The translations under genes and the position numbers were made by a program. Of a DNA stretch of 64,000 nt, positions 22,257 through 56,015 are shown one piece after another (position 1 is the first letter of the stretch; each line of letters opens with the position of its first letter). The stretch spans positions 1-64,000 of the forward strand of contig JAGYJQ010000003.1 of the NCBI GenBank assembly GCA_018401935.1. Reading direction: 5' to 3'. The notes beneath the pieces were generated by a model. The model was not told the DNA's origin. It did not search any database and saw only the letters and a list, made by a program, of their open reading frames with translations. Source of the stretch: Balneolaceae bacterium (GTDB taxonomy: Bacteria; Bacteroidota; Rhodothermia; Balneolales; Balneolaceae).

Positions 22257-22299
22257 GTTGCGTTCTCTTTACTTCGTTAGTTTTTAAGTGATTTGGTAG

Positions 22300-22953: not shown

Positions 22954-23046
22954 AGTGGCTTATACATTGTTTTAGCCTACATTAATTGGGCTATATAAGG
23001 TTATTAGAATGTTTAGCAAAACAGATTATTGGATAATAATTCATGA

Positions 23047-24240: not shown

Positions 24241-24241
24241 T

Positions 24242-25045: not shown

Positions 25046-25060
25046 TTATCCGGATTTATA

Positions 25061-26839: not shown

Positions 26840-26869
26840 AAGTGTATAATTTTAATTTAATGGCAAGGA

Positions 26870-35252: not shown

Positions 35253-35254
35253 TA

Positions 35255-37201: not shown

Positions 37202-38775
37202 TCGTGTGTACTCCATGTTTCATCCAAGGGTTTATTTAGAAATTGATTTGCGTCTATTTTCCACTGCTCTACTCGCTCTCGAACAAAAGAATTTTGCCGA
37301 TAGTAACCATTTTCTACTAATGGTGGCCAAGAAGATGGAATATACGCTGACACATTTTTTACATCATTCAAATAGGAAGACGGTATTACAGCGTTTATGA
37401 TCAAATTCGTTTGCTCTTCTGGGTCCAGTTCATGATCATATAATTCTTGGGAGCCGTCTTCGTACTGTATAAATCTAATGGTCTCCGTTCTCAGACTAAT
37501 ATTGCCCGGACCAAATTCGGTAATAGCTGGTCTTGGCCAAGGAATGTTTTTTTGTTGTACAAGTGGTGCCAGACTAAGGCCTTCGTTATCCGGATTTTCC
37601 GACAGGCCAGCTAATTCTACCAAAGTCGGATAAATATCAATTAAACCCACAGGCTTTGCACTAAGGGTATTTTTGGGAATACTTGGACCTGAAAAAATTA
37701 ATGGAACTCTGGTATCCCGCTCCCAGAGAGACATTTTTGCAAATCTGTTCTTTTCACCAAGGTGATAACCGTGATCTGAAAAAAGCACAACGATGGTATT
37801 ATCTTTATAAGAACTATTATCCAAAGCGTCTAAAACCCTTCCTACTTGATAATCTGTCCACGTAACAGAAGCTAAATAGGCACGGACAGCTTGTCTCCAC
37901 TCATCTTTTTCCAAAAGATACTCCGTTGTAGGCATCGGTGGGGTATGGGTTAAAAGTTTAGCATACTGTGGAATATCTGCCAAGTCTTTTGGATTGTAGC
38001 TAGGCATAGAAATTGAATCAGGATTATACATATCTAGCCATTTTTGAGGCACATACCATGGAACGTGAGGCCGAACAAAACCAACTCCCAAAAAGAAAGG
38101 TTTTTCGTGATCTTTCTGAAGTTGATCTATCGCCCAACTTGCATAATAATAATCGGACATATCTTCATCTTTCTCTGGAAAAGCACCCCAATCTGTGTTT
38201 GTACTGTTCACCCCATCATAATTCGGTCCTTCCTCGGGTACATATACCATACGCTCATCCGGCCTTGGTCCAAACCACTCTCTTCGTTCTCCATATTCCT
38301 GAAAAGTGTTGGCTTCATCGTTGCCATGCCAAAGCTTACCTGCCCCCATAGTTTTATAACCATAACGCTCAAAATATTGAGGTAAATAAACTGAATTAAG
38401 GGTTTGATCACTCGCTTCTCGAACAAATTCATCTTTTATTTGAAAATAAACACCCGTCGTATGAGGATACTTACCTGTCATTATAGATACACGACTTGGA
38501 GCGCAAATTGGTGCTTGAGTGTGGGCGTTAGTAAATAACATACCACGTTCGGCTAATCGATTAATATTCGGTGTTTTAATATCTGGGTTTACCTTCAACA
38601 CCTCTACCCAATCATTAAGATCATCAATAGCTATAAAAAGTATGTTGGGCTTTTGTTCGTAAGTTAGTTCCACTTTTGAGGTGCAGCTACTTAATAAGCA
38701 AAGGGGAAACAGAAAAAAAAGAACAGAATTACGAAAAAAGGTTTTGAAGAAATAAAGTAATCGGTTAAGTTCCAT
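37195..38775 (-). CDS. Sulfatase (iduronate-2-sulfatase-like), lipoprotein
   Basis: 526 residues. Signal with lipobox LLSSC (Cys31). Motifs: NILFIAIDDLNDWVEVL, QAPICAPSRVSIMTGKYPHT with Cys91 in C-x-P-x-R, GAGKLWHG, and VLFSDHGYHLGEKNRF. The IDDLNDW and GKLWHG forms resemble iduronate/choline-type sulfatases, which fits a 2-sulfated uronate, though family resemblance is not proof. First gene of the four-gene sulfatase operon. An operator-like sequence (38755-38770) covers codons 2-7, so a LacI-type repressor would sit on the start. Confidence 0.9.
   Translation of the reverse strand: MELNRLLYFFKTFFRNSVLFFLFPLCLLSSCTSKVELTYEQKPNILFIAIDDLNDWVEVLKVNPDIKTPNINRLAERGMLFTNAHTQAPICAPSRVSIMTGKYPHTTGVYFQIKDEFVREASDQTLNSVYLPQYFERYGYKTMGAGKLWHGNDEANTFQEYGERREWFGPRPDERMVYVPEEGPNYDGVNSTNTDWGAFPEKDEDMSDYYYASWAIDQLQKDHEKPFFLGVGFVRPHVPWYVPQKWLDMYNPDSISMPSYNPKDLADIPQYAKLLTHTPPMPTTEYLLEKDEWRQAVRAYLASVTWTDYQVGRVLDALDNSSYKDNTIVVLFSDHGYHLGEKNRFAKMSLWERDTRVPLIFSGPSIPKNTLSAKPVGLIDIYPTLVELAGLSENPDNEGLSLAPLVQQKNIPWPRPAITEFGPGNISLRTETIRFIQYEDGSQELYDHELDPEEQTNLIINAVIPSSYLNDVKNVSAYIPSSWPPLVENGYYRQNSFVRERVEQWKIDANQFLNKPLDETWSTHEW
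38755..38770. promoter_or_regulatory. Operator-like site at sulfatase operon start
   Basis: AAGTAATCGGTTAAGT, 13 of 16 matching the palindrome at 27861-27876 and differing by one base from the site at 57337-57352. Overlaps the first codons of the leading sulfatase gene, 195 bp from the divergent GH88 ATG. Confidence 0.6.
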
Positions 38776-38964: not shown

Positions 38965-40158
38965 ATGAAATCTTTTATTATTTCTTTATTCACCCTTTTA
39001 ATTGTTTCCTCTGGCTGTATAACACAAGTTGAAACCATTCCTACCCTTGAGTTTGCTTCCCAACAACTAGAACTCTTAATTGCAGAATCGGATGCCAATC
39101 TTGACGCAGAGAACCGATCTAACCGAGGCAGACTTATTGCGCCAAGAACGGTTGAGGGCGGGGAACTTCATTTTGTTCATTCCGGTGACTGGACCAGTGG
39201 ATTTTTTCCCGGCGTTTTATGGCAAATGTATGAACTCACCGGTGAGGAGAAATGGGCTGAAAGCGCTAAAACCTACACCTCCCTTGTAGAGCGTGAAAAA
39301 CGAAATGGTCGCACACACGACATGGGCTTCAAAGTGTATTGTAGTTTTGGCCAAGGATATCGTCTCACCAAAGATATGGACTACAGAGATGTTATTATTG
39401 AGTCGGCAAATACACTTATTACTCGATTTAACCCAACCATTGGCGCTATTCGGTCATGGGATCACAATACAGACAAATGGGAACATCCTGTCATTATTGA
39501 TAACATGATGAATCTTGAATTATTATTTAGAGCCACACAAGAAACCGGTGATTCAACTTACTATAATATTGCTGTTAGCCATGCAAACACCACTCTTCGT
39601 GAGCATTTCCGAGAGGATAACAGCTCATATCATGTAATTGATTTTTATCCAGAAACTGGCGAGGTTCGCAAACGAAATACGCATCAAGGATATGCTCATG
39701 AATCGGCTTGGGCTCGCGGTCAAGCTTGGGGGCTTTATGGGTTCACTATGAGTTACAGGTTTACTCAAGATCCAGCTTACCTAGAACAAGCTCAAAAAAT
39801 TGCGGCTTTTATCCTCACCCATCCGAATATGCCTGATGACTTAGTTCCATATTGGGATTTCAACGCACCTGACATACCCAATGAAGCTAGAGATGTCTCC
39901 GCCGCTACGATTATTTCCAGTGCCTTATTCGAATTGAGTTCGATGATTGAAGGTGAACAAGCCACTTATTATGAAAATGTGGCAAACAAAATTTTAGCAA
40001 ACATCGATGCTAAATATCGTTCAGATATTGGAGATAATTTTGGGTTTTTATTGGACCATTCAACCGGTAATCATCCCAAAGATAGTGAGGTAGATGTGCC
40101 TATAAACTACGCTGACTACTATTATTTAGAAGCTTTTTCCAGATCCTTAGGAAATTAG
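38965..40158 (+). CDS. GH88 unsaturated glucuronyl hydrolase, lipoprotein
   Basis: 397 residues. Lipobox VSSGC (Cys18). (alpha/alpha)6-barrel GH88 features: HSGDWTSGFFPGVLWQMYEL, the catalytic region RTHDMGF with Asp119, IIDNMMNLELL with Asp179, and HESAWARGQAWGLYGF. These enzymes hydrate the double bond of the 4,5-unsaturated uronate left by lyases, so the sugar opens to 5-keto-4-deoxyuronate. That product feeds KduI and KduD encoded at 54293-56015. Heads a plus-strand operon with GH43, a HAD-like protein, a beta-helix protein and an esterase. Confidence 0.93.
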   Translation: MKSFIISLFTLLIVSSGCITQVETIPTLEFASQQLELLIAESDANLDAENRSNRGRLIAPRTVEGGELHFVHSGDWTSGFFPGVLWQMYELTGEEKWAESAKTYTSLVEREKRNGRTHDMGFKVYCSFGQGYRLTKDMDYRDVIIESANTLITRFNPTIGAIRSWDHNTDKWEHPVIIDNMMNLELLFRATQETGDSTYYNIAVSHANTTLREHFREDNSSYHVIDFYPETGEVRKRNTHQGYAHESAWARGQAWGLYGFTMSYRFTQDPAYLEQAQKIAAFILTHPNMPDDLVPYWDFNAPDIPNEARDVSAATIISSALFELSSMIEGEQATYYENVANKILANIDAKYRSDIGDNFGFLLDHSTGNHPKDSEVDVPINYADYYYLEAFSRSLGN

Positions 40159-40179: not shown

Positions 40180-41862
40180 ATGATCATGGGTACTAAAAAA
40201 AATATTATTCGGAGGTATTGTACCAGGGTCTTCTGGTTCATTGCCTGGGGATCCGTTGTATCCTGTTCTCAGGAATCATTAACTCGAGATGCCTCTAGTC
40301 TTCCCGAAGGCCATTTTAAAAATCCACTTTATTATGCTGATTTTCCAGATCCAGATATAGTAAAAAGTGGCTCGGATTTTTACATGGTAACTTCTAGCTT
40401 TCCATATAGCCCCGGCCTTCCCATTCATCATTCTACGGATTTAGTTCATTGGGATTTAATTGCCAACGCATTTGAAACACAACATAGTAGCCACTATGAT
40501 ACTCCTCGACATGGGGATGGGGTTTTTGCTCCATCAATAAAAGAACATAATGGCACCTTTTATATCTACTATGGGGATCCTGATTTCGGAATTGTAATGA
40601 TGAAATCAACCCATCCAAGCGGCCCTTGGACTCCTCCTAAAGTGATCAAAGAAGCAAAAGGATGGATTGACCCTACTCCATTTTGGGATGAGGATGGTAA
40701 TGCATATATGATTCTAGCCTATGCCAAAAGTAGAGCGGGAATCAATTCAGTTTTAGTATTGCACAAACTGAGTTCTGAAGGAGATCAAATTCTGGATGAC
40801 GGGGTTATCATCTATGATGGTACCGATGAAAACCCAATAATTGAGGGACCAAAGTTGTATAAAAGAGGGGAATACTATTATATATTTGCTCCCGCTGGGA
40901 GTGTTCCTTATGGTTGGGAAACGGTTCTTCGGTCTAAAAATATTTATGGGCCTTATGAATTTCGAAAAGTATTACATCAAGGTAGAACCTCCATTAATGG
41001 CCCTCATCAGGGATCTTGGATTGCCTTAGATTCCGGTGAAGATTGGTTTTTACATTTTCAGGATTTTGACTCGTATGGAAGAATTCCACATTTGAACCCA
41101 CTAAGTTGGACTGAAGATGATTGGCCGATCATAGGAATTGACTCCGATAATGATGGAATTGGTGAGCCCGTAATGAGTGCCCCGTATCCCAAAGTGGCAA
41201 ATCCAACCCCTCCAAAAGATCCTAAAACCTCGGATAGTTTCAATGACCTTGCAAGTACACCAAGTTATCTTCAACCTCAGTGGAGATGGCACGGAAATTA
41301 TAATCCTGAGTGGTTCTCATTAAGTGAACGCATTGGGCATCTAAGACTTTTCGCATTACCTGTAGACAACGGGGATATAAATTTGGTTCAAATGCCGAAC
41401 TTTTTATCCCAAAAATTTCCCGATATAGCCTTTGAAGTTGTGGCAAAAATAGACGTTTCTGAGTTAAAAGAGGGTGGGGAATTTGGAATGGGGGTTAGTG
41501 GCGAAACCTATGCTGCACTTACTATTCGGAAAACTCCCACCCAAACACATGCCAGTTTTAAAACCCGTTATCAAGCTCGGAATAGCGCAATAGAACAAAC
41601 TCTACATAAGGTGCATTTCAACAATGATACTAATCAAGAATTTTTTATAAAACTCGTAGTGGAACAGGGAGCTCTATGTGACTTTTATATAAGCCAAGAT
41701 GGGCAGGAATATTACAAAATGGGATCAGATTTTAAAGCGAGTAAATTACGTTGGGTCGGTGCTTCTTTCGGTTTTTATGCGGCAAGCAGTCAAGATTCTG
41801 ACCGCGGTTATACCGACATTGATTACGTAGAGGTATCCTACACTCCCCAAAATAAACGCTAA
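40180..41862 (+). CDS. GH43 glycosidase, beta-xylosidase/arabinofuranosidase-type
   Basis: 560 residues. Signal region RVFWFIAWGSVVSC suggests a lipoprotein. Five-bladed propeller with the GH43 triad: base Asp57 in ADFPDPDIV, pKa-tuning Asp164 in GWIDPTPFWDEDG, and acid Glu222 in IIEGPKLYK. The C-terminal ~200 residues form the beta-sandwich found behind GH43 xylosidases (WRWHGNYNPEWFSL). Removes a pentose, probably xylose or arabinose, from the polymer. 21 bp after GH88. The 1466-residue fusion at 45079-49479 carries a second GH43 unit. Confidence 0.92.
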   Translation: MIMGTKKNIIRRYCTRVFWFIAWGSVVSCSQESLTRDASSLPEGHFKNPLYYADFPDPDIVKSGSDFYMVTSSFPYSPGLPIHHSTDLVHWDLIANAFETQHSSHYDTPRHGDGVFAPSIKEHNGTFYIYYGDPDFGIVMMKSTHPSGPWTPPKVIKEAKGWIDPTPFWDEDGNAYMILAYAKSRAGINSVLVLHKLSSEGDQILDDGVIIYDGTDENPIIEGPKLYKRGEYYYIFAPAGSVPYGWETVLRSKNIYGPYEFRKVLHQGRTSINGPHQGSWIALDSGEDWFLHFQDFDSYGRIPHLNPLSWTEDDWPIIGIDSDNDGIGEPVMSAPYPKVANPTPPKDPKTSDSFNDLASTPSYLQPQWRWHGNYNPEWFSLSERIGHLRLFALPVDNGDINLVQMPNFLSQKFPDIAFEVVAKIDVSELKEGGEFGMGVSGETYAALTIRKTPTQTHASFKTRYQARNSAIEQTLHKVHFNNDTNQEFFIKLVVEQGALCDFYISQDGQEYYKMGSDFKASKLRWVGASFGFYAASSQDSDRGYTDIDYVEVSYTPQNKR

Positions 41863-42192: not shown

Positions 42193-44115
42193 ATGGAGTA
42201 CACAACACAAAAAATCACGCTTTCAACACTACTCATTTTGTTATTTTCGGTTTGGATTCCGAGTAGTTTTCATACACAAGCCCAACAATCTAGTCTTGTA
42301 TATGAAGGGATAGATGGAAAATTACAATACTCACCGTATGCCAACTATGGAGAAGAGGAAGATACTACCAATATAATCCCTGACTTTTCATGGGCTGGGT
42401 ATAAATTTAGTGAAGTACCAATTCCCGATGTCGAGGTAAAGATTGTTTTGGAACCCCAAGATGGGGATGATCATTCTCGAATTCAGGCTGCCATAAATGA
42501 ATTGTCTACTTATCCTATTGACTCAACAGGGTTTCGTGGTGCTATACTTTTAAAAGCTGGTTATTATGAAGTAAGAGGTTCCTTGTATATCCGCCATAGT
42601 GGTATTGTGATTAAAGGAGAGGGCCAGGCTTCTGCTGAGGAGGGTGGTACCCATATTATGGCCACCGCTCGCACCAGTCATGATCTATTCAATTTTTTTG
42701 GTCCTGACGAGCCTGATGGAGTTAAAGGTGAATCGGTGAGAATACTTGAAGACGCACCAACGGGTACTACTCAGCTCATTTTAGCAGATGCAAGCTCCTT
42801 TTCGGTAGGAGATCTTATTCACGTGCTACGTACGCCAAATCAAAAATGGATTGATGATATAGAAATGGGTCCGCTAGGATGGACTCCTAGTTCCTATAGT
42901 ATACCCTACGAACGAAGCATCCATAAAATTAATGGGGATACTGTATATATAAACGTCCCCTTAGTACAGGCTATGACTGAAAAATATGGTCTTGGGGAGG
43001 TGTATAAGTATGATAATTCATACCGCATTAATAATGTAGGTATAGAAAATATGTATCTAACCTCTATTTACACTCATCCTACCGATGAAAACCATGCAAA
43101 TAGGGCAACCTATTTTCAAAATGTGGAGGATGGTTGGGTTCGAAGAGTTACTGCAAAACATTTTATACGGGGTACGGTCACTATAAATTGGTCCTATAAA
43201 ATTACAGTTGAAGACTGTGCTTTAGTAGATCCCATTTCTAAGATTTCGGGTAGCCGTAGATATTCGTTTGAGGTAAACAAAGGGTCATTCAATTTATTCC
43301 AAAGAATATATACCCGAAATGGTCGACATGACCAGGTTACTGGCTCACGCGTTGCCGGCCCAAATGTTTTCGTCGATAACTATTCGGAAAACACTCATGC
43401 CGAAACCGGGCCTCACCATCGATATGCAACGGGTTTACTGTTGGATAATGTGCGCGCTGGAGACATTCGTGTACGAAATAGAGGATTCACGAGCGGTGGT
43501 TCAGGTCATGGCTGGAGTGGCGCACAGGTTATGTTTTGGAATGTTATTTCTGCACCCGGTTATCAAGTTCTTGCCTCACAGCCCTATGGATCGCGCTCTT
43601 GGGCGATTGGAGCAAAGGGTGATCGTGTCGGAAATGGTTTTTTTGAAATAAATGGAGAAGATGCCGAGCCAAGAAGTTTATTCTATAGGCAGTTAGAAGA
43701 TCGAATTGGAAAGGAAGCCGTAGACGCTATGACCACCGAAACTCAAAAGAATGGCACTATTTTACGAGCACTTAAGGAGTGGAAGGGAGAAGGTTTTTTT
43801 GACCCCGCTTGGGTTACATCAACTGAAGATAATCCCACTTCTGATCAGCCTCAAGGTTATTATCTTGGACCAAATTATCCAAATCCGTTCAACCCTAGTA
43901 CAAAAATTCAATTTGGATTTCCTAGTGCAGGTCATGCTTCATTAGATGTATACAATTCGATTGGACAACAAGTCCAAACACTGGTTGATGGATTTGTGCC
44001 TAGTGGCCATCATGAGTTTACCTTTAATGCAGAGAATTTACCTTCTGGACTTTATTTCTACACCCTCAAATCAGTCGGATTTGAGGAAACACGGTCTATG
44101 TTGCTAATTAAATAA
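42193..44115 (+). CDS. Right-handed beta-helix protein (putative polysaccharide lyase) with T9SS tail
   Basis: 640 residues. Signal segment LLILLFSVWIPSSFHTQAQ. Residues ~75-520 form a pectate-lyase-3-like beta-helix (GFRGAILLKAGYYEVRGSLY). A strongly conserved central block reads NGRHDQVTGSRVAGPNVFVD and GPHHRYATGLLLDN. The last ~80 residues are a T9SS type A sorting domain (NYPNPFNPSTKIQF, LPSGLYFYTLKS). So it is secreted through T9SS and probably surface-attached. The same helix block occurs in the N-terminal part of the 1466-residue protein at 45079-49479, so they are paralogs. Cleavage chemistry is not shown; a lyase or hydrolase on a uronate polymer is inferred from context. Confidence 0.85.
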   Translation: MEYTTQKITLSTLLILLFSVWIPSSFHTQAQQSSLVYEGIDGKLQYSPYANYGEEEDTTNIIPDFSWAGYKFSEVPIPDVEVKIVLEPQDGDDHSRIQAAINELSTYPIDSTGFRGAILLKAGYYEVRGSLYIRHSGIVIKGEGQASAEEGGTHIMATARTSHDLFNFFGPDEPDGVKGESVRILEDAPTGTTQLILADASSFSVGDLIHVLRTPNQKWIDDIEMGPLGWTPSSYSIPYERSIHKINGDTVYINVPLVQAMTEKYGLGEVYKYDNSYRINNVGIENMYLTSIYTHPTDENHANRATYFQNVEDGWVRRVTAKHFIRGTVTINWSYKITVEDCALVDPISKISGSRRYSFEVNKGSFNLFQRIYTRNGRHDQVTGSRVAGPNVFVDNYSENTHAETGPHHRYATGLLLDNVRAGDIRVRNRGFTSGGSGHGWSGAQVMFWNVISAPGYQVLASQPYGSRSWAIGAKGDRVGNGFFEINGEDAEPRSLFYRQLEDRIGKEAVDAMTTETQKNGTILRALKEWKGEGFFDPAWVTSTEDNPTSDQPQGYYLGPNYPNPFNPSTKIQFGFPSAGHASLDVYNSIGQQVQTLVDGFVPSGHHEFTFNAENLPSGLYFYTLKSVGFEETRSMLLIK

Positions 44116-44125: not shown

Positions 44126-45082
44126 ATGAGAGTCATTACCTCTGGTACTATTTTTATACTACTTCTTTGCACAGTCTTTCAAACCACAACTGCAAAGGCT
44201 CAAAGCATCTATAATTCAGATGCTCTACTAGAATTATGGCCAGAACGCGCTCCCTTACAGATGAAGTGGGACTTTGATGAAGTTCACGAGCGAACAAATA
44301 AACTCCGGATTAGTAATATACATACCCCAACTATTGAAATATTTCTTCCACAAAACGCCGGCCATACAACACCAGCTGTAGTCATGTTTCCAGGTGGAGG
44401 ATATTCCGTCTTAGTGTATGAAGAAGCAGGTACTAACTATGCTGAGTGGTTAAACAAAAGAGGTATTGCAGGAATTGTTGTGAAATATAGATTACCCGAT
44501 TGGGAAGTACAGTCACAAGCAAAATTTGTTCCTTTAATAGATGCCCAACGAGCACTTAGAATGGTTCGGTATCACTCAGAAGAATGGAATATTGATCCAG
44601 ATAGAATAGGAATTATGGGTTCTTCAGCTGGAGGACATTTAGCATCGTCCTTAAGTACCTTATTTTCTGTGGATACCTTAGTTACACTGAAAGATTCAAT
44701 ACAGAGCATCAGTGCACGTCCCAATTTTAGTATTTTAGTATATCCAGTAATTTCAATGTATGACCCATATGCTCATAAAGGGTCACGAAGAAATCTACTA
44801 ACCGAGAATTTTACCGAGGAAGATCAAGCTTATTTCAGCACCTTTAGACAGGTTTCCGGTGGAACACCTCCAACATTTATAATTCACAGTTCAGATGATA
44901 AAAGTGTTTCGGTAGAAAATAGTATTCAATATTATACTGCCCTAATTGACAACGGGATATCCTCTACAATGCATGTATATCAAGATGGTGGTCATGGATT
45001 CGGTATGGGCAATGGCCAAAGTTCCGTACAGGATTGGCTTGATGTATTAGACAAATGGCTACAATTCAATGGATACCATTAG
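44126..45082 (+). CDS. Secreted alpha/beta-hydrolase esterase (acetyl xylan esterase-like)
   Basis: 318 residues. Signal segment (FILLLCTVFQTTTAKAQS). Oxyanion-side VMFPGGGYSVLVYEEAG, nucleophile elbow GIMGSSAGGHLASS (G-x-S-x-G with the catalytic Ser), and a late DGGHGFGMG with the catalytic His. Lipase/esterase of the BD-FAE/Aes type, common in polysaccharide loci, likely removing acetyl groups from the polymer before cleavage. Its last codon and the stop of the convergent 1466-residue gene overlap by 4 bases. Confidence 0.85.
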   Translation: MRVITSGTIFILLLCTVFQTTTAKAQSIYNSDALLELWPERAPLQMKWDFDEVHERTNKLRISNIHTPTIEIFLPQNAGHTTPAVVMFPGGGYSVLVYEEAGTNYAEWLNKRGIAGIVVKYRLPDWEVQSQAKFVPLIDAQRALRMVRYHSEEWNIDPDRIGIMGSSAGGHLASSLSTLFSVDTLVTLKDSIQSISARPNFSILVYPVISMYDPYAHKGSRRNLLTENFTEEDQAYFSTFRQVSGGTPPTFIIHSSDDKSVSVENSIQYYTALIDNGISSTMHVYQDGGHGFGMGNGQSSVQDWLDVLDKWLQFNGYH

Positions 45083-48000
45083 TTCTCGAATCGGGGCTGA
45101 TTAAATTCGAAGTCAGCCCAGTTTACCTTTAATAAGCTATTGGACTTATTTCCATTAGATGTACCATAAAGTCCAACGTAACTACCCGTAAAACGGCCCC
45201 CACCTAAATCCATTCCAAGAAAAGTGCCATCCACAGTTATTGGGAGTTCGAACCAGTTTTCAGCAGTGGGAATACGATAATAAAATCGGTACTTACCCAT
45301 TTCACTGCTCATTTTTAAACTCAGATTCGAAAGATTCATTTTAGTTTGGTAAAGAACCTGTACCTGTGACTGTTCGTCAAATTGTTGTGCAATTACTAAG
45401 TGAGGCTCACCTGATACCTGTTTGACTGAAAACGTAATATGTCTGTACTGTTCTCTAAGCGCAACAATGCCAGCCTCTTCACCTTCTACCTTTGGCTGGA
45501 AATCAATATTGGTGGTAAATGTAAAGTCAACTTGTTCCATCCGGACCCCAATAAAAGAAGGGTTAACCGGTTCTTGTAAAGTTTCAGGGCGGATTTGAAT
45601 AAGCAGTTGTTCATTTTCCGAATCTATCTCATACCACTTGTATTTTGGTATTCTAATAAAGTTCCAGCGAGTGTTTAATGTTGTTCTGGTAAAATAATCC
45701 GTGAAACGAGTGGTCCCACTATTAGTTTTCCCATCAATCAACCTATGTGTTAATTCGGCTCTACCAACAGCACCTGTTGGGTTCACAATGGGCCAATCAG
45801 AGCTCCAATCTACCGGCGATAGCATTGTTTCTCTACCTAATGGGTATGATTGAACTAACCCAGATCCATAATATGGATCTTCAATCAACCCATAAGGACG
45901 TTTACCATGATACACAGTCCACCACTGATCTAAATGATCCTGAATTAAAGAGGCGTGACCGGTAGATGTGATGGGATGTGAAAAATCCAAGTCCCGGTGA
46001 GTTAAAATTGGATTCTCTGGATTAGACTCATACGGCCCGGTAATACTCTTACTTCTAAAGATGGAAACAGCATGATATTCCTCTGTTCCACCATGGGCTA
46101 TGAGTAAATAGTAATACCCATTTTTTTTATACAAATGGGGTCCTTCAAAATTATTTACCCCCCTAGCATAGCCTCCATCTAGGGTTCCATTTTGATAGTA
46201 ATCTCCTGCATCAATCAATGTATGCTGTTCACCAATAAACTCTTTTTTGTCTAAATCAAACTCTCTTAACCATATTATACGTTGTTTATTCCACTTTGCA
46301 TTCTCTGGCCTCAAATTCCCTAACAGATATAAGCTTCCATCATCATCAAAAAAAAGTGATGGATCTATCCCACCAGCTTCATCTAACCATATGGGATCAG
46401 ACCATGGCCCTTCTGGTTTTTTTGCAGTTAGAATGAACGAACCTTTCTTTTGGGGAGTACCAATGAGACGGGTAGCTATATAAAATGTACCATCATGATA
46501 TTTAAAGGATGGAGCAAATATACCTCTAGAATTAGTTACATCACCATATGATAGTTGCTCAGTTCGATGAATTGCATGTCCAACTAATGACCAGTTCACC
46601 AAATCGTTGCTTTTATAGATGGGTAAACCTGGAAAATATTCAAAGGTTGAGGTAGTTAAATAATACGTTGAATCTTTTTTTGTAATGGATGGATCCGGAT
46701 TAAAACCTGGCAATATTGGATTATGGTAGATGCTAGGTACAGGGTCACGCTCACTCAAATGAAGGGCTGATTCTGATTTCTCAGAAATAGAACCTAATTG
46801 CTCATTGGGGTATTGCTGTAAAAGTGGCAGCCAAAGAAGAATATTCTTTGCCGAAAGATTCCTTTTATCTTCGGTACTTAATTCAGGCCAACCTTTCTGT
46901 TTCCACGAATTTAACCAATTAATATCTTGCTCGTAATACGAAAGTAGAGGAAAAAACAGGAATCGATTGGGTTGCGAGGCCCATTCTGACACATCTGCTT
47001 CATACGGCCATAACTCCTTATCTATAAGAAATGGTTTCAAGAACTGTATGGATCTAAGAAGTAACGCTCGTTCTTTTTTAACTGGAAATATAGATTCTTG
47101 TTCATTGGAAAGAAGTAGTGATAGTAATACAAAGGCCTCCAAATTGTACTGACTATAGGCATAGGGTTTCGTTCTAGAAACCTCAAAAATATATTCACCT
47201 TTTTTAGAAATTTGATTAGGGACTAACACCTGCTCTAATCGGTTTCTTATATCTTCTAGGATAGCTGCATTATTGGTAACCCTAGCAAAAGCAGCCGCCT
47301 GTACGTGCCACCAAGTGCCATGATTGTTTCTCCAATTCATTTCCTCTATACCATTTGGATGTGTAGTCAACCAGCCAAGATAGTCTCTAAACCAGCTTAT
47401 CACTGGCTCTAATCTATTTAGAGGAACCAGATGATTATCCCTCAATATTTCGACCACTCTAGCTACATCAACTAGGTGGCCTGTATCTATTATTCCTATC
47501 CCCCGTCCCTTGCTTATACCTTGTATAGCCTGGGCATAAAGTAGATGTGGGTTCATCTTAGTTTCTTTATGAACAAACCAAGCTTCTAAGTGATTAATCA
47601 CCTTATTTAAGTAGCGAGCATCCTCTGTTATTAGATAGGCGGAGAGTAAGACCCCTACTTGATATGAAAAATTTTCAAGTACAATGCGATGGTAATCAAA
47701 ATTATTAGGGTTTGTTTCACCATCACGTCTTATGTAAGCTCCTTCTGGGTCGTTAGGATTCGGCCACCAATAGGTACCTTCTGAATAATAGTTATGAAGC
47801 CCACCCGAACTTCGTACACTCTGATATGCGGTTATCGTTTTAGGCGGTAGCCCAAGAAAATGATTTGCATTCTTTATAAGCTCAGGCCTCTCCCTATCAA
47901 CAATTAAGCCTTGAATCGTCTCCCTTGATACACGGTGACGCTCGTTCAATTGTGCTAGGTACAATGAATTCGGGAAGAGTCCTACTTTATTATGCCCCTC

Positions 48001-49479
48001 CCAAATTCCATCTGGACTATTTGGACTAAACCCTTCCACTTTTTCGGTTTGTAAGCCAATTGCATAATTCTTTCCAGAAGCTATTGGGCTTTGAATTACA
48101 GAAGATCTTGAAATAGAGTTCCATACTACATGGTTTACTCCAGCCCATCCATGCCCACTACCACGATTACCTCGATTTTGAACGTTTAATTGGCCGTCAG
48201 TTTGTATGTTATCATAGAGCGTGCCGGTTGCCCACCGATGATGTGGTCCCGCATCGTTATGAGCATTTTTTATGGTGCAATCAAAAAAAACATTGGGCCC
48301 GGAAACACGAGCCCCTGTGACTACGTCATGCCTTCCGCCTAAAGTCTCACAATGTTTTACTAAGTTGAGTTCTCCATCAATATTAAATGAATATCTACGA
48401 CCACCGGTTATTTTAGACTTGGGGGTAATATTCCGAGCGTATTGTACGGTAATATGCTTTGAGTTTTTTTCAATAGAGACAGCAGAATAACCAAAATACT
48501 GGGCTGTTATGAATTGAACCCAAGAGTGTGAAACACCATCTATGAATATAGCATCCCAGCCATGTTTTTCGTCTATTTCATGTTGATATTCGGATTCTAA
48601 CCGAAGATATTCAACGCCTACATTAGAAATACGGCCAGGATATTCTGTTTTGTAGACCCATGTTGTATCATGCCTTTTATCTAACGCCATTACGATGGGG
48701 TTCCGAAAAAAAAGTGTATCACTGTTCACCCTAGAAATTACCCGCTCAAAACTTAGTGCATAACTTTCCGGATCCCAGGCAAATACCGGCCTATCATCTG
48801 GTCTCGGTGGAATTGTGTCCATGTTAATATCTTTGATCCACTGAGCATTCCCTTTTCTATATATAACAATTTCTTCGCCCGGATTAAACAGTGCTCCATG
48901 TTCAACTACAACAAATTGTTGACCGACAGGAACATATTCTTCTGTAATTAGCTGGGCTGTTTCTTTTATAATTTCTCTTTCTCCTTCACCCTTCAGATAA
49001 ATAAGAGGTCTTTTTTTATTCCCAGTTGCCCTTATTACCGTTCCATTCTTAGCATCAGAAACTCCACGTAGAACTATTCCGCTTTCATCGATCACTAGAG
49101 AATCCTCCACTAGATATAGTCCCTGATGGAGTAAAATAGCTCCCCTAAACCCTTGCTGGTTTACAGGTAAACTACCTACAGAATCAATCACTTGCTGAAT
49201 CCTTTTGGCATCGGTATTTGAAGCAAACAGTTCAGCAACCACCTCCACTTCAGGGATAGAGGTATCTCCATAGTTATATCCTACATGACTGAAATCGGGA
49301 ATCCTATTACCTAATGAATCTGACTTATACCCTAGCTTGTTGTCTTGATCATAAAAAACATACTCTGACTGCCAAGTAGCCTGTTGGGCTATCAAATTGG
49401 ATGTTTCTAGCGAAATAATACAGGATATTATTATGGCTATGATCTGAATTGGCTTTGGATTATAAGTCTTAAATGTCAT
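45079..49479 (-). CDS. Three-module protein: beta-helix + alginate-lyase-like + GH43
   Basis: 1466 residues with a signal (ISCIISLETSNLIAQ). Module 1 (about 60-520): beta-helix as in the paralog at 42193-44115 (GGRHDVVTGARVSGPNVFFD, GPHHRWATGTLYDN). Module 2 (about 555-880): alginate-lyase-like alpha-barrel (PL5/PL38-type) with MNWRNNHGTWWHVQAAAF, His720 in the NNH-x-x-W motif, and KPYAYSQYNL with candidate Tyr775. Module 3 (about 915-1466): GH43 propeller with Asp929 (PGFNPDPSI), Asp1039 (GGIDPSLFF) and Glu1112 (NFEGPHLY), plus a C-terminal beta-sandwich. No T9SS tail is seen, so it is probably periplasmic. No frameshift divides it. One chain with two presumed lyase units and a pentosidase is unusual. 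Stands alone on the minus strand. Confidence 0.9.
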   Translation of the reverse strand: MTFKTYNPKPIQIIAIIISCIISLETSNLIAQQATWQSEYVFYDQDNKLGYKSDSLGNRIPDFSHVGYNYGDTSIPEVEVVAELFASNTDAKRIQQVIDSVGSLPVNQQGFRGAILLHQGLYLVEDSLVIDESGIVLRGVSDAKNGTVIRATGNKKRPLIYLKGEGEREIIKETAQLITEEYVPVGQQFVVVEHGALFNPGEEIVIYRKGNAQWIKDINMDTIPPRPDDRPVFAWDPESYALSFERVISRVNSDTLFFRNPIVMALDKRHDTTWVYKTEYPGRISNVGVEYLRLESEYQHEIDEKHGWDAIFIDGVSHSWVQFITAQYFGYSAVSIEKNSKHITVQYARNITPKSKITGGRRYSFNIDGELNLVKHCETLGGRHDVVTGARVSGPNVFFDCTIKNAHNDAGPHHRWATGTLYDNIQTDGQLNVQNRGNRGSGHGWAGVNHVVWNSISRSSVIQSPIASGKNYAIGLQTEKVEGFSPNSPDGIWEGHNKVGLFPNSLYLAQLNERHRVSRETIQGLIVDRERPELIKNANHFLGLPPKTITAYQSVRSSGGLHNYYSEGTYWWPNPNDPEGAYIRRDGETNPNNFDYHRIVLENFSYQVGVLLSAYLITEDARYLNKVINHLEAWFVHKETKMNPHLLYAQAIQGISKGRGIGIIDTGHLVDVARVVEILRDNHLVPLNRLEPVISWFRDYLGWLTTHPNGIEEMNWRNNHGTWWHVQAAAFARVTNNAAILEDIRNRLEQVLVPNQISKKGEYIFEVSRTKPYAYSQYNLEAFVLLSLLLSNEQESIFPVKKERALLLRSIQFLKPFLIDKELWPYEADVSEWASQPNRFLFFPLLSYYEQDINWLNSWKQKGWPELSTEDKRNLSAKNILLWLPLLQQYPNEQLGSISEKSESALHLSERDPVPSIYHNPILPGFNPDPSITKKDSTYYLTTSTFEYFPGLPIYKSNDLVNWSLVGHAIHRTEQLSYGDVTNSRGIFAPSFKYHDGTFYIATRLIGTPQKKGSFILTAKKPEGPWSDPIWLDEAGGIDPSLFFDDDGSLYLLGNLRPENAKWNKQRIIWLREFDLDKKEFIGEQHTLIDAGDYYQNGTLDGGYARGVNNFEGPHLYKKNGYYYLLIAHGGTEEYHAVSIFRSKSITGPYESNPENPILTHRDLDFSHPITSTGHASLIQDHLDQWWTVYHGKRPYGLIEDPYYGSGLVQSYPLGRETMLSPVDWSSDWPIVNPTGAVGRAELTHRLIDGKTNSGTTRFTDYFTRTTLNTRWNFIRIPKYKWYEIDSENEQLLIQIRPETLQEPVNPSFIGVRMEQVDFTFTTNIDFQPKVEGEEAGIVALREQYRHITFSVKQVSGEPHLVIAQQFDEQSQVQVLYQTKMNLSNLSLKMSSEMGKYRFYYRIPTAENWFELPITVDGTFLGMDLGGGRFTGSYVGLYGTSNGNKSNSLLKVNWADFEFNQPRFEN

Positions 49480-49504
49480 GTGTTTTTTAGGTTATGAAAT
49501 AGAA

Positions 49505-49538
49505 AAAGGGATAACCATATATCAGTGATTATCCCTTT
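49505..49538 (-). terminator. Rho-independent terminator of TonB-receptor/beta-helix operon
   Basis: AAAGGGATAA (49505-49514) pairs with TTATCCCTTT (49529-49538) around a 14-nt loop; read on the minus strand the stem runs into T (complement of the A-run before 49508). It lies 51 bp after the stop of the beta-helix gene and 26 bp ahead of the next minus-strand ATG. Confidence 0.8.
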
Positions 49539-49588: not shown

Positions 49589-51193
49589 CTACTTAATTAG
49601 TGTGATAGTTTGGCTTCTAACCTCTGCGCCTGCTTGCATTCTAATGATATACACACCACTGGATAAATTGCCTGCATTGAATCGCATAGTATGTCTACCT
49701 GAATTTTTTAGACCTAAATTTTCAGTATAAACTTCCTGTCCCAAGACCGAGTACACAGTGTAACGGACATTACTTGGTGAACTTAGTTCAAAGGATAACT
49801 GAGTACTAGGGTTGAATGGATTTGGGTATGCATTCTCCAACACAAAAGCATTGGGTAGTTCATCACCTAATTCACTTGAGGTAACCATTTCTTCCCATTC
49901 AGCTTTTTTATCTGGGAACCAATTTAAATCACCTAAAGGAAGCCCATTCATAGCTGCTGAATACGATGCGGCTGTAGTAGGGTAGCTCGCGTCAATAAAT
50001 GGGGCGCCAATAACATCAGTTTCTTGCCATCTTGGATATGGATCTGGCCGGGGATCGGCAAAAAGATTATTCATATAGTCAGCCATATCTGTTAAGGTTG
50101 GAATCTCGGTTAACTCTACAAACTCTTCCTCTATGAATGCTGCATTGAAAGCCTCGGTACCCATCACATTTTCCAGAGAAGGTATCATTAAAGGTGGCTT
50201 TGATGTAAATGCACTGTTTGTTTCCCAATATGTATACACAAGAGGACTCCAGGCTGCATTATTATGACTGATTTCCACCTCTAAATCTGCAACAAGAGTA
50301 TCTAGAGTAATTAAATAATGACTATCATTCTCTTTTTGTGTTTGCTCGGCAACATTAGGATGCGCTCCTTTCCACTGTGCATCTAAAAATAGGTTATTCG
50401 TAACTTTGGCTTTATCATATACCGTTCCTAATTGAAGCATCCCGTGCTCCCCTTCATGATTAAAGACCGTGTTATGATCAAATTCAAAGTAACCAATTGA
50501 AGCGCCCTGAGTCCGAACAATTCTATCCATAATCATGTACATAGTGTTGTTAGAAAATACAAGAGAATCAACCGGCCTTGCATCACGTATATCAATAGGA
50601 CGGCCATTTCCACCTGGAGTAGAACGTTGTCCCATTCTTCCAATCACAGAGTTTTTGATATACCACTTTTGATTATTCCCGTATACGGCTAATCCCGTAC
50701 CACGTGCATTTACTAAGTAACAGCCATCTATAACTATTCTAGAACTATCAGCTAAGGCTCTTATTGGCCGACCTTCATTTCTGTTTTCACCGTTTTGGGT
50801 ATCTATCCAAATTCCTTCTAGAATTAGATCTCCTCGTTGTCGAATGATATCTGGGAATCCACCTCCTTCTGCTTGCAAAGGTAAAATCAAGGGAGGGGTT
50901 CCTTCTCCTTCCTCTGCTCGTATGTGCAACGTAGTTCCATCCTTACCAAGTTGACTCGAGACAAAGTAAAAAGAATTTCTCTGTAGCTCGTATATTCGCT
51001 CTGCGAACTCCCCGTTTTCTAAGGTATCATTATTAATGATTGGTGTAAGATCTAATCCGGTTTGGGTAGCCTCAATCACCATCACATCTTGTGCTTGTAT
51101 TGCGGAATGAAAGCTGCTGCCAAAACCGATTAGCGCAAAAGCTAACAGGCTCAAACAACTTTTATTGCTTATTCTTTGTATTAGTTTAATCAT
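49589..51193 (-). CDS. Right-handed beta-helix surface protein with T9SS tail
   Basis: 534 residues from ATG 51193; a TTG at 51253 would overlap the receptor gene. Signal ends SAIQAQ. Beta-helix repeats include IVIDGCYLVNARGTGLAVYG, WYIKNSVIGRMGQ and HNTVFNHEGEHGM, the pattern of chondroitinase-B/DUF4957-like polysaccharide lyases. C-terminal T9SS type A domain: NAYPNPFNPSTQLSFEL, LSSGVYIIRMQAG. Secreted to the cell surface. Immediately follows the TonB-dependent receptor, replacing where SusD would stand in a classical polysaccharide locus. Could bind or cut the polysaccharide; catalytic residues not identified. Confidence 0.8.
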   Translation of the reverse strand: MIKLIQRISNKSCLSLLAFALIGFGSSFHSAIQAQDVMVIEATQTGLDLTPIINNDTLENGEFAERIYELQRNSFYFVSSQLGKDGTTLHIRAEEGEGTPPLILPLQAEGGGFPDIIRQRGDLILEGIWIDTQNGENRNEGRPIRALADSSRIVIDGCYLVNARGTGLAVYGNNQKWYIKNSVIGRMGQRSTPGGNGRPIDIRDARPVDSLVFSNNTMYMIMDRIVRTQGASIGYFEFDHNTVFNHEGEHGMLQLGTVYDKAKVTNNLFLDAQWKGAHPNVAEQTQKENDSHYLITLDTLVADLEVEISHNNAAWSPLVYTYWETNSAFTSKPPLMIPSLENVMGTEAFNAAFIEEEFVELTEIPTLTDMADYMNNLFADPRPDPYPRWQETDVIGAPFIDASYPTTAASYSAAMNGLPLGDLNWFPDKKAEWEEMVTSSELGDELPNAFVLENAYPNPFNPSTQLSFELSSPSNVRYTVYSVLGQEVYTENLGLKNSGRHTMRFNAGNLSSGVYIIRMQAGAEVRSQTITLIK

Positions 51194-51230
51194 AGTTTTT
51201 CGTTTATGTTTGGATTTATTGGTGTAGATA

Positions 51231-54197
51231 TTAGAATGTATATCGAATACCAAAATTCGTGATTGCTCCGTAATGACTTATAGATCGAGGGTACCTTAGT
51301 TCATAATTCCTATAGGTTTGTTCCCGCATACCCGTTAGATTGGAGATACTAAAGTGAGCAACTAGATTGTCATTAATCTTTTGCTTAAGCGCCAGGTCCC
51401 ATCTCCAGAATTCTCCACTATTTGTGTCTTGAATTTCACTTTGGCCAGCTCCTACTAGATAATCGCTTTGATAATTGCCAGATATTCTTCCAGAAAAACC
51501 CTTTAAATCGTAACCTACTGAAAGATTAAATATTAACGGTGGCTGTCCAGGCATGTCAATTTCTCTTGTTTTTTTTACAACAAATTTTTCAAAAACAGGA
51601 CGGCCTCGTACAAACCCAACTAAGCTATCTTCGGTGGTAAAATTGTACTTAGTTGTTTCCGAAAATTGTCTCGTCACGTTCAAACTTAGAACGACACCAC
51701 TTAGGGGGGAATCTAAAGCACTTAAGTTTGTCTGTAGGTCAACTTCAATTCCACGCACCATCGCCTCAGGACTGTTATCATAAGAGGTTAGATCATAGCC
51801 GGCTCGACTAGGAAAACCCCAAACTGCAGCTAAACTATCACTGGCTAGATAAAGCCCTGAAACCGGGAAGAAGATGTTTTTGAGTTCTTTATAAAAACCT
51901 GAAACAGAGAGTAGGCCTAATTTAGGACTAAAAAATGTGGCTGTAATGTCATAATTATCCGCCGTCATATGCTTTAATTCTGGATTTCCAGCCGTTATTC
52001 TGGATCGTTCCGCATTAATATTGGCTTTTGGAATAACCATGTTGTAGTCAGGTCGAGCCAATGTTTGTGCATAGGATAGTCTTAGATCAAACCAATCTAC
52101 TGGTTGAATTTTCACATGCAGATGCGGCATTATTTCCTTATAACTTTTGGTACGTGTCGTATCATCAATGGTACCCTGTTGGCCGTAGCGCTCTTGAAGC
52201 CGTGAATACTTTGCCGTCATATCATTAAAGGTATCCTCAAAACGTACACCTGATATTATTTTTACATAATTCCCGACGTTCACATTAACCATCCCATAGT
52301 AGGCGTCAATATTTTCATCATACAGATAATTATCTTCAAGACCGTACCGATCGATATGCAGTATCTCTTTTTGAGTATCAATCCAATTTTTTATTAGGCC
52401 GGCACTTAGTGGATTAGTCATTCTATAATCCCCCCCTAAGAAGGTTCCAACCTCATATGGATTGCTGCCGATAAAATTGTTCAAGGCAATACGCCCATCT
52501 GGGGTTAAAGAGAGCACATCATTGGTTTCTTGCCATAGATCAATAGCGGTTCTCATTTCAAGTCCGCCTAAGTAGTAAAATGTTTCTGCTAATGTAGCAT
52601 CATCCTTTTCTCTTCCCATTCTTTGTGCCTTGGCACCCATTTTGAATGAGCTTTCTATAAAACCTTGGCTTAGAGGTATTTCGATGTTAATTAAGGCGGT
52701 TAGATTATCTTCGATTTGTGAACCCGTATTAAAACTACCATTGCGTAATCTTGACCTAGAGAAATCTGTTCTGGCAGAATCTACCCACTGAGCCATAGGG
52801 ACATCATTAAGTATGGGGTCATGACTGTATGCTTCAATATCTTCAAAAAGCATGTAATAGGAGCCCGGACTCTCTCCTTTGGTTCTTGAAAAGGAGGTAC
52901 TCCAGTCTACATCAATCCCTTTCCAATTATGTTCCCCACTGACCATGTTGGTAAGTAAACTTATCTCACGCTCACTCACACTCATCGAGTACTGAACAAT
53001 ATTATCCTCTATTGGACGATAATTTTCGTTTCTACTCTCCATATCTCTACCGGTACTGGCATAGTAAGAATACAATGCTAAGTTTCCGTTCTTTAAACGA
53101 TAATCTAAGTTCAAATTGAAAGATGAACGAGTTCGAAATTCTATCTGATCACTTAGGTTGAAGTTTAAAGGTTGTATATCTTCTAATATTTGATAGCCAC
53201 CACCAAAGTCATTTGAACTTCGTTCGATTCCCTCGACATTACCCTGAAGTATTACGCCTAATTTTTGATCTAAGTATCTCCTGCTTAGATTGGCAGAGGC
53301 CTTATAATTACCAAAAGTAGATTTTAACCCGTTATAAGCTCCTTCTAAACTAAGCTTACTTGTGTTAACATTTGGCGCTTCTCGTAAGACAAGATTGACT
53401 GTACCACCTATGGCATCCGCATCCATATCGGGAGTAGGTGATTTATAAACCTCAATACCTGCCAATGCCTCCGTTGAAATCATACTTAAGTCTACCGACT
53501 TGTTAGAGCCTGAATTGGAGGGTACTTTAACACCATTAATGGTGATGTTGGTGTACTTAGGATCTAAACCTCTAATAATTACTTTTTGTCCTTCACCATT
53601 GTTACGTTGAAGAGCGATACCAGGTAATCTGCCAATTGCCTCTGCAGCATTTACATCCGGTAATTCTCTCATTTTTTCTTCTGAAACTATATTTACTATA
53701 GCATCGGATTCTCTTTGTTGATTAATGGCTTTGACCTGTCCAATTGCTTGCCCATATACCAACACATCTTCCCCCGTCAATGCAATCGGCATCAAATTAA
53801 AAACCAATGCCTCATACTGGCCGTCTTGTATAGTTATGTTTACTTCCTGCTCCTGATAGCCTAAATACCGAATTAATAGGGTATAAGATCCATCCTCAAC
53901 ATTTCTAATGATAAAATTTCCATCCAAATCTGTTGAGGCTCCTTTTGTCGAGTCTTTTATTAAGACCGTCGCACCTATTAGTGCTTCTCCTGTCGCTGCA
54001 TCTAGTACCTGACCTTTTATATCGGTAGCTATCTGATAAGATCTATTTAAAGCTAATTTATCGGTTACTTTAATATCAAAAATATTTTGTGCTAGAGATT
54101 GATCAGCACCTATAATGAACGCAAAAGCTGTCACTAAACTTGCAATAATGGTCCGTTTGAATGGATTTTTTAGCATTTTAAGTTTTTGATTATTCAT
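51231..54197 (-). CDS. TonB-dependent receptor with carboxypeptidase-regulatory-like domain
   Basis: 988 residues from ATG 54197 (ATG 54257 and TTG 54266 are in frame upstream; 54197 gives MNNQKLKMLKNPFKRTIIAS leading into the signal AFAFIIGADQSLAQ). Residues ~60-140: carboxypeptidase-regulatory-like domain (IKGQVLDAATGEALIGATVL). Then the plug (MRELPDVNAAEAIGRLPGIA, IRGLDPKYTNITINGV, GGTVNLVLREAPN), then a long barrel ending NFGIRYTF. Imports oligosaccharides across the outer membrane with TonB energy. No SusD gene lies nearby, so this is a stand-alone TBDT, like CirA/FpvA-type receptors. First membrane gene after the KduI-like gene; a palindrome AAAGCGCTTC sits 45 bp upstream. Confidence 0.93.
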   Translation of the reverse strand: MNNQKLKMLKNPFKRTIIASLVTAFAFIIGADQSLAQNIFDIKVTDKLALNRSYQIATDIKGQVLDAATGEALIGATVLIKDSTKGASTDLDGNFIIRNVEDGSYTLLIRYLGYQEQEVNITIQDGQYEALVFNLMPIALTGEDVLVYGQAIGQVKAINQQRESDAIVNIVSEEKMRELPDVNAAEAIGRLPGIALQRNNGEGQKVIIRGLDPKYTNITINGVKVPSNSGSNKSVDLSMISTEALAGIEVYKSPTPDMDADAIGGTVNLVLREAPNVNTSKLSLEGAYNGLKSTFGNYKASANLSRRYLDQKLGVILQGNVEGIERSSNDFGGGYQILEDIQPLNFNLSDQIEFRTRSSFNLNLDYRLKNGNLALYSYYASTGRDMESRNENYRPIEDNIVQYSMSVSEREISLLTNMVSGEHNWKGIDVDWSTSFSRTKGESPGSYYMLFEDIEAYSHDPILNDVPMAQWVDSARTDFSRSRLRNGSFNTGSQIEDNLTALINIEIPLSQGFIESSFKMGAKAQRMGREKDDATLAETFYYLGGLEMRTAIDLWQETNDVLSLTPDGRIALNNFIGSNPYEVGTFLGGDYRMTNPLSAGLIKNWIDTQKEILHIDRYGLEDNYLYDENIDAYYGMVNVNVGNYVKIISGVRFEDTFNDMTAKYSRLQERYGQQGTIDDTTRTKSYKEIMPHLHVKIQPVDWFDLRLSYAQTLARPDYNMVIPKANINAERSRITAGNPELKHMTADNYDITATFFSPKLGLLSVSGFYKELKNIFFPVSGLYLASDSLAAVWGFPSRAGYDLTSYDNSPEAMVRGIEVDLQTNLSALDSPLSGVVLSLNVTRQFSETTKYNFTTEDSLVGFVRGRPVFEKFVVKKTREIDMPGQPPLIFNLSVGYDLKGFSGRISGNYQSDYLVGAGQSEIQDTNSGEFWRWDLALKQKINDNLVAHFSISNLTGMREQTYRNYELRYPRSISHYGAITNFGIRYTF

Positions 54198-54240
54198 TTC
54201 AATTATGATTTCTTTATTTGGGAAAATTCGTTTTAATCTT

Positions 54241-54251
54241 GGAAGCGCTTT
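54241..54251. promoter_or_regulatory. Palindromic AAGCGCTT site upstream of TonB receptor
   Basis: Minus strand AAAGCGCTTCC, containing the perfect 8-bp palindrome AAGCGCTT, 44 bp before the receptor ATG and after the KduI stop. A similar TGAAAGCGCTTCAA lies at 58490-58503. The form is like LacI/CcpA-family sites. Confidence 0.4.
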
Positions 54252-54292
54252 TGTCATTGTATCCAAAAATTACCTGTTTGTTCATTTTGTAA

Positions 54293-55231
54293 TTACCATT
54301 CTCCATCGTAACCGGGTTTATTAACCACTTCCGCCCAATCTCTAACATTCTCAGTAAAAGATGCCAAGCACCAATGGAACATAAATTTCATTGACGGCGG
54401 GGCTAAGGTGTCATGATATCCAGGCGTGACATTAATGGCATATTCATCAAAAATATGTACATAAGCACCTACATCTTCACCAGGGCGGGCACAATTTTGC
54501 ATAACATAGCCTACATCATTGGGTATATCTGATTCTACTCTGAAATGATAAATCTCTTCCTTAGCATTGGCACCTAAACCGAATGGGCCATCTGGGCCAT
54601 GAAAATGGGGTGGGTAACTACCAACACCACCTGCTTTGTCCATGTAGGTATCACCTGAAAGTAACCGGCAAGCTCGTATATTAGACCCATCAACCAGTTT
54701 ATATACCGTTCTCTTTGTCATGGGTCTCTTAGTGCCTACATGTGCTGCTAAATCTCCTTGTTCTATTTCTGCGTGACGAACCAACTGTACTGGATATTTA
54801 TGAGTGCATTTCACAGCTCTAAATTCAATTATATCACAATCAGATTTTGAACTCACTTTAACCGCCGAATCTATTCCGACGTATAAACAATCACCCCAAA
54901 CTAAATCTACCTCTTCACCGTCAACCTGTATTGTTGCAATACCTCTGTGCACATAAAAAACCACCTCTTCCTGTTTCCATGACAAATCAACAACTTGATA
55001 TCCATCTTCATTTACATCCAAAAGAATACGCGCCATTCTCAAGAATTGAAAACTGGAATTGTCACCCGTAATCACTTCAGATCGCTCATTTAAAGTGGGG
55101 ACGGCATCAAACATCTCCATTTCCCGTAATTCTTCTTGGCCTGGCACTACTACACGGCCATTAAACCTACGTTCATTCGGTTGTTTACTTGCACTTCTTA
55201 GAATTGATCCTATTTGATATGGTTTTACCAT
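54293..55231 (-). CDS. kduI: KduI/IolB-type cupin, probable 5-keto-4-deoxyuronate isomerase
   Basis: 312 residues from ATG 55231; a GTG at 55273 would overlap kduD. Bicupin of the KduI/IolB superfamily. Metal-site pieces: SYPPHFHGPDGPF (two His), AKEEIYHFRV (Glu and His region) and PGYHDTLAPPSMK (His). N-terminal cupin has QEEVVFYVHRGIATI and GDCLYVG. Follows KduD immediately. KduI turns 5-keto-4-deoxyuronate into 3-deoxy-D-glycero-2,5-hexodiulosonate, the KduD substrate. IolB-like deoxyglucuronate isomerase is the main alternative, but GH88 and KduD context favours KduI. Cytoplasmic. Confidence 0.75.
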   Translation of the reverse strand: MVKPYQIGSILRSASKQPNERRFNGRVVVPGQEELREMEMFDAVPTLNERSEVITGDNSSFQFLRMARILLDVNEDGYQVVDLSWKQEEVVFYVHRGIATIQVDGEEVDLVWGDCLYVGIDSAVKVSSKSDCDIIEFRAVKCTHKYPVQLVRHAEIEQGDLAAHVGTKRPMTKRTVYKLVDGSNIRACRLLSGDTYMDKAGGVGSYPPHFHGPDGPFGLGANAKEEIYHFRVESDIPNDVGYVMQNCARPGEDVGAYVHIFDEYAINVTPGYHDTLAPPSMKFMFHWCLASFTENVRDWAEVVNKPGYDGEW

Positions 55232-55253
55232 TCCTTTTCTATTTTGTTTTGAA

Positions 55254-56015
55254 TCATCTCGCCATCCATCCACCGTCTACAGTGAGTACATGTCCATTAA
55301 TGTAATCGGAAGCTTTTGAAGCTAAAAATACAGCAGCACCTGCTAACTGACCCGGCTCGCCCCACTTACCTGTAGGTATTCTGGTTGATATTTGAGCAAA
55401 TCGCTCTTCATTATCCTGGAGAGCTTGAGTATTGTCCGTTTTAAAATAACCTGGTGCAATGGCATTTACTTGTATTCCGTATTGCGCCCATTCATTAGCT
55501 AAAGCTTTAGTCAAACCAGCGATTCCGTGTTTACTCGAAGCATACGATGGAACAGTAATGCCACCTGAAAAACTTAGTAATGAAGCCGTATTTATTATTT
55601 TACCTTTTCCGTTTTTGACCATTTCTCTTGCAAAATGCTGAGCAATGATGAATGGCGCTGTCAAATTTATATCGAGCACTCTTTTCCAGGAATCTAAAGG
55701 TGTATCAATAGCTGGATAACGTTCTATGGTTCCTGCATTATTTACAAGTATTTCTACAAAACTGTGTTGCTTATCGACTTCTTTCAGTACAAGATTTAAT
55801 TCTTTTTCATTAGATAAATCAGCCGAATATGCCCAGGATTTCACCCCTAATTCTTGTATTATTTTTACCGTTTCATCAGCTGAACCTGGGCGCGATCCCA
55901 AACAAATTACATCGGCTCCAGCTTTTGCTAAGGCAATAGCCATTGCTTGTCCTAAACCTCTGCTTGCACCCGTAACCAAAGCGGTTTTTCCCGATAAATC
56001 AAACAATTCCTGCAT
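55254..56015 (-). CDS. kduD: 2-keto-3-deoxygluconate 5-dehydrogenase (SDR)
   Basis: 253 residues, short-chain dehydrogenase. TGASRGLGQAMA binds NAD, NNAGTIERYPA follows, and the catalytic Ser-Tyr-Lys set is in NTASLLSFSGGITVPSYASS followed by Lys. RYPAIDTPLDSW and the C-terminal VLTVDGGWMAR are typical of KduD. It reduces 3-deoxy-D-glycero-2,5-hexodiulosonate to KDG. Neighbours KduI and the DUF4861 gene; start of KduD overlaps the end of the DUF4861 gene closely. Confidence 0.9.
   Translation of the reverse strand: MQELFDLSGKTALVTGASRGLGQAMAIALAKAGADVICLGSRPGSADETVKIIQELGVKSWAYSADLSNEKELNLVLKEVDKQHSFVEILVNNAGTIERYPAIDTPLDSWKRVLDINLTAPFIIAQHFAREMVKNGKGKIINTASLLSFSGGITVPSYASSKHGIAGLTKALANEWAQYGIQVNAIAPGYFKTDNTQALQDNEERFAQISTRIPTGKWGEPGQLAGAAVFLASKASDYINGHVLTVDGGWMAR

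Follow-up and report, generated by a model that had tools for sequence, protein, structure and literature searches.

We identified a single open reading frame that joins a right-handed β-helix (M1), a PL38-type alginate-lyase-like module (M2) and a GH43 glycosidase (M3) in one chain. It is probably a real, exported multi-catalytic enzyme that arose when neighbouring genes of a single polysaccharide-utilization operon became fused. The gene lies in the 64,000-nucleotide stretch of DNA analysed here (hereafter the window), which opens a 249-kb contig of a Balneolaceae genome (G000; 94% complete, with 2.6 Mb spread over 71 contigs). The parts are familiar, and the exact M1-M2-M3 combination was found nowhere else in the genomes or papers searched.

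Architecture of the fused protein

The frame encodes 1466 residues, starts with ATG and contains no internal stops. Its features, given with the evidence used, are:

45079..49479, minus strand: fused ORF M1-M2-M3 (ORF reading and Pfam)
49384..49479, minus strand: signal peptide, residues ~1-32 (read from sequence)
47932..49383, minus strand: M1, right-handed β-helix, residues ~33-516 (AlphaFold2, Foldseek, conservation)
47902..47931, minus strand: M1-M2 linker, residues ~517-526 (sequence and alignments)
46825..47901, minus strand: M2, PL38-type alginate-lyase module, residues ~527-885 (Pfam, alignments)
46729..46824, minus strand: M2-M3 linker, residues ~886-917 (Pfam, sequence)
45790..46728, minus strand: M3, GH43 catalytic domain (Pfam, alignment to solved enzymes)
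45106..45699, minus strand: GH43_C2 concanavalin-like domain (Pfam)

The first-pass annotation had described one 1466-residue chain of three modules, a description borne out by the ORF, the Pfam matches and the fold predicted by AlphaFold2. Pfam recovered Alginate_lyase (PF05426) at residues 551-824 (E 3.6e-63), Glyco_hydro_43 (PF04616) at residues 918-1230 (E 6e-86) and GH43_C2 at residues 1261-1458 (E 5.5e-37), the last being a domain absent from that annotation; no Pfam family matched M1 (residues 33-516). All domain and motif matches of the fused ORF are far past the chance level. On reading the sequence, its leader is likelier to be an SPI signal peptide, and a lipobox-like IISC is also there. 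A predicted two-module model of M1 and M2 (pTM 0.58) had poor joint alignment and is unusable for judging their interface. In the gap that separates the fused ORF from its upstream neighbour lies a hairpin with an associated T run (window 49485-49585: AAAGGGATAATCACTGATATATGGTTATCCCTTTTT), and the fused gene may therefore have a promoter of its own.

The β-helix module and its family

AlphaFold2, supplied with 42 homologues, predicts M1 to be a right-handed β-helix with high confidence (pLDDT 95, pTM 0.94). Its best PDB matches in Foldseek searches are phage or bacterial polysaccharide depolymerases and lyases at the low TM-scores of 0.4-0.45, which defines its fold clearly but not its family. 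The best viral structural match of the model is a Mimivirus AB-566-O17 protein annotated as a "putative dihydrofolate reductase" (TMq 0.59, E 2.8e-15); this label is probably wrong, the protein being a β-helix. The M1 family shows a conserved cluster comprising E290, H306, R362, H384, D385, H413, R415, R436 and H443, and the polar cluster is kept in the M1 of the window. Glu290, Trp445 and Arg436 never vary across the 42 members; Arg362 and His306 are almost as constant, and His384 is kept in 36. His413 is lost solely in nine DUF6298-type members, and His443 is lost in the same nine, with Gln in one further member. Pfam found the DUF6298 domain in a relative (L047) and not in the fused ORF, which places the latter outside the DUF6298 type. 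Judged from sequence conservation, these residues would fit, rather than prove, a catalytic groove.

A more specific connection is offered by the NCBIfam model NF058554, built on BT3328, a surface endo-lyase of family PL29 acting on HA/CS (PMC6994673). This model is matched by 25 of the 42 M1 members (best E 4.5e-14, best 51.6 bits) over about 200 residues (~90-300 of the module) that miss most of the conserved cluster; the M1 family stays far below the full-length family cut-off of 1100 bits. The M1 of the window itself has no significant match to the model and is not assigned to PL29, and no solved PL29 structure came up among its structural matches. Of the two lyase-like folds claimed in the first-pass annotation, the β-helix and the PL38-type module are both present, and a lyase role for M1 is plausible, because of the distant PL29 relation over part of the helix and the conserved His/Arg/Glu cluster, but unproven.

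It is also quite possible that M1 is non-catalytic, a carbohydrate-binding or scaffolding β-helix that keeps an acidic polymer in place for M2 and M3. M1 behaves like many binding modules in that its fusion partners include several unrelated catalytic domains, namely BNR_4 (L045:3149-7504), a glucuronyl esterase domain (L046:6211-9318) and DUF6298 (L047:6375-9539), and the DUF6298-fused members have lost H413, R415 and H443, which implies that the fold persists lacking that cluster. However, stand-alone T9SS-secreted M1 proteins with no other catalytic domain are common and stand first in the operon, the His/Arg cluster is retained by most members, including that of the window, and the closest solved structures are those of depolymerases or lyases. 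The most elaborate version of the catalytic reading, in which M1 belongs to an unclassified β-helix lyase family and opens a strand that M2 then shortens and M3 debranches without release, we regard as rather doubtful.

The M1 family is widespread and lacks a Pfam model; its members are found alongside PL38, GH88, sulfatases and genes of uronate catabolism, and it may represent an undescribed lyase family. We consider this unclassified family the most interesting part of the protein, meriting biochemistry more than the fusion does.

The PL38-type and GH43 modules and their locus

The five catalytic residues named in the first-pass annotation were numbered correctly and all fall in conserved motifs. 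In M2, H720 lies in RNNHGTWW and Y775 in SRTKPYAYS; N718, N719 and H720, together with R769 and Y775, correspond in the alignment to the NNH and R..Y motifs of 8BDQ and are invariant in 24 homologues. In phmmer comparisons M2 matched 3NFV with E 3e-44 and 8BDQ with 1.4e-30 over 292 aa. The module is helical in the predicted model, and its PL38 similarity extends over the (α/α) toroid, as judged by the phmmer match. It is the sole PF05426 domain of the genome and groups in the tree with a set of 12 rows including L097 (support 100/99), on a long branch (1.93 changes per column); hence its specificity may differ. The known activities of PL38 are directed at alginate, glucuronan and hyaluronan/chondroitin, RiPL38 being the enzyme that acts on the last of these (PMC13027841). 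As they span several polymers, sequence alone cannot give the exact substrate of M2.

In M3, D929 (in NPDPS), D1039 (in GGIDPSLF) and E1112 (in FEGPHLY) align with the three acidic motifs of solved GH43 β-xylosidases, identifying it as a GH43 catalytic domain. Its closest solved enzymes are the β-xylosidase 5Z5D and the arabinofuranosidase BoGH43B; in the tree it forms a clade with L093 and L097 (support 100/100), apart from the GH43 proteins of its own family.

The neighbouring genes in the window are:

21222..27853, minus strand: PfkB (KDG) kinase, KDPG aldolase, UxuA, SDR and TRAP transporter, for uronate catabolism and uptake (annotation)
33663..38775, minus strand: three S1-type sulfatases (annotation)
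38965..40158, plus strand: GH88, of the unsaturated uronyl hydrolase family (Pfam)
40180..41862, plus strand: second GH43 with GH43_C2 (Pfam)
42193..44115, plus strand: M1 paralogue with a T9SS tail, 40% identity (Pfam, comparison)
44126..45082, plus strand: BD-FAE/acetylesterase-like, convergent, with a 4-nt overlap with the fused ORF (Pfam)
49589..51253, minus strand: BH2, T9SS-tailed β-helix-like protein, upstream neighbour (Pfam, relatives)
51231..54266, minus strand: TonB-dependent receptor (annotation)
54293..57221, minus strand: KduI, KduD-like SDR and DUF4861 (annotation)

The M1 paralogue next door agrees with what had been noted from the sequence in the first pass. BH2 occupies the place beside the TonB receptor where a SusD would be expected (window 49589-54266), and the same pair is also seen in L048, L087, L093, L202 and L204. 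The window additionally contains a 2404-aa ORF (3834-11048, minus strand).

Going by known pathways, we infer that this gene set would handle a sulfated polymer containing uronate as well as pentose, and the activities and their order may be envisaged as follows. The long chain would first be opened by M1, most likely a groove-binding β-helix depolymerase and perhaps an endo-lyase with a distant relationship to PL29. M2 would most likely cleave the uronic-acid polymer by PL38-type β-elimination, with Tyr775 serving as base/acid and His720, Asn719 and Arg769 assisting, yielding unsaturated uronates. M3 most likely strips xylose or arabinose by the inverting hydrolysis of GH43 (putatively Asp929 as base, Asp1039, and Glu1112 as acid). 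The products would enter via the adjacent TonB receptor, GH88 would take off the unsaturated uronate, the sulfatases and acetylesterase would remove decorations, and KduI, KduD, the kinase and KDPG aldolase together with UxuA would burn the uronates.

That the fused protein is specific for ulvan appears improbable. Sulfatases, GH88, GH43, KduI/KduD and a TonB receptor are the typical set of ulvan loci and all are found in the window, but neither RhaA nor a BNR_4 (PL24/25-type) lyase is present anywhere in the 94%-complete genome, and ulvan is accordingly the less likely substrate.

Unfused relatives and the origin of the fusion

Many Bacteroidota encode the modules of the fused protein in separate neighbouring genes that share a strand and the order of the fusion, as in L048 (TBDT > BH2 > M1 > M2) and L093 (TBDT > BH2 > M1 > M3). 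Comparable orders are seen in L202 (TBDT > BH2 > GH88 > M1 > M3), L203 (M1 > M3) and seven loci with M1 > M2 > GH88 (L084, L085, L086, L109, L111, L180 and L187). The order in the window is TonB receptor > BH2 > [M1-M2-M3], so the fused protein keeps the gene order of its unfused operon. Since the modules are separate yet adjacent in these relatives, the protein looks like a fused operon for an acidic sugar polymer. Partial fusions also exist, the modules being promiscuous in their partners: L097 (JAIFNN010000001.1, a separate Bacteroidota MAG) encodes a 952-aa PL38-GH43-GH43_C2 protein 44% identical to each of M2 and M3, its M1 carrying a CBM96 and a T9SS tail; L130:3607-6651 encodes a 1015-aa fusion of heparinase II/III-like and PL38 domains; and GH88 is fused to PL38 in L083:7872-10145, L181:5645-7513 and probably L103. 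GH88 is the unsaturated-uronyl hydrolase expected to act on the product of a lyase, and the last fusions join both. Three other long frames proved to be of a different nature: the 1042-aa frame of G800 (M1-M2) and the 1527-aa frame of G631 (M1-M3) are read-throughs of separate adjacent genes with stops between them, and the 1474-aa frame of L045 is M1 with BNR_4 rather than a PL38 fusion.

No second M1-M2-M3 protein was recovered in 1,645 overlapping genome searches covering every rank from family to phylum, plus the classes or families to which the best relatives belong (the phylum and large classes as samples), among the best 80 of at least 580 PL38-like loci in a GTDB scan, or in searchable papers. 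No description of a PL38-GH43 fusion was found in the literature outside subscription papers and CAZy. The claim of novelty stands for the three-module order and was overstated otherwise, as same-order neighbouring genes, PL38-GH43 and other fusions exist. None of the modules occurs in eight genus mates, from which we infer that the locus was probably acquired.

The full fusion was found in one genome only, a 71-contig assembly, and relatives encode its modules as neighbouring separate genes, but a false join of two or three genes during assembly is highly improbable: the frame, domain ends and short linkers are intact, the ORF retains neither a second signal peptide nor a T9SS tail, 15-mers of the M1-M2 junction do not recur elsewhere in the window, GC is even across the modules (0.38-0.41), an M2-M3 fusion is also carried by a separate MAG (L097), and an artefact would need in-frame deletion of both the M1 T9SS tail and the M2 leader. 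The misjoin feared in the first pass at residues ~890-915 is largely answered by L097, and one at the first junction (~516-527) is unlikely in view of the in-frame join, the complete domain ends and the colinear unfused operons. With the same enzymes seen as separate colinear genes, two-module fusions and a three-module fusion, the genuine fusion that we favour offers a case of condensation of an operon into a protein.

In comparison with known systems, the M1 family has in common with PL29 (BT3328) a profile stretch of ~200 residues, and differs in lying far under the cut-off of that family, the window's M1 having no significant match. M2 shares its fold and the NNH and R..Y motifs with the PL38 lyases (the alginate lyases BoPL38, 8BDQ, and 3NFV of B. 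ovatus, the glucuronan lyases CUL-I and TpPL38A, and RiPL38), but is flanked in one chain by a β-helix and a GH43, and is nearer to the uncharacterised clade to which it belongs (34-47% in the alignment) than to these characterised members. M3 resembles the GH43 β-xylosidases and α-L-arabinofuranosidases with GH43_C2 (5Z5D, BoGH43A/B 5JOW/5JOZ) in its catalytic domain, C-terminal β-sandwich and three acidic residues; unlike them, it is the C-terminal part of a multi-enzyme, in the small clade with L093 and L097. L097 likewise has the M2-M3 fusion, with four sulfatases downstream, and differs in that its M1 is unfused, encoded by a separate gene upstream.
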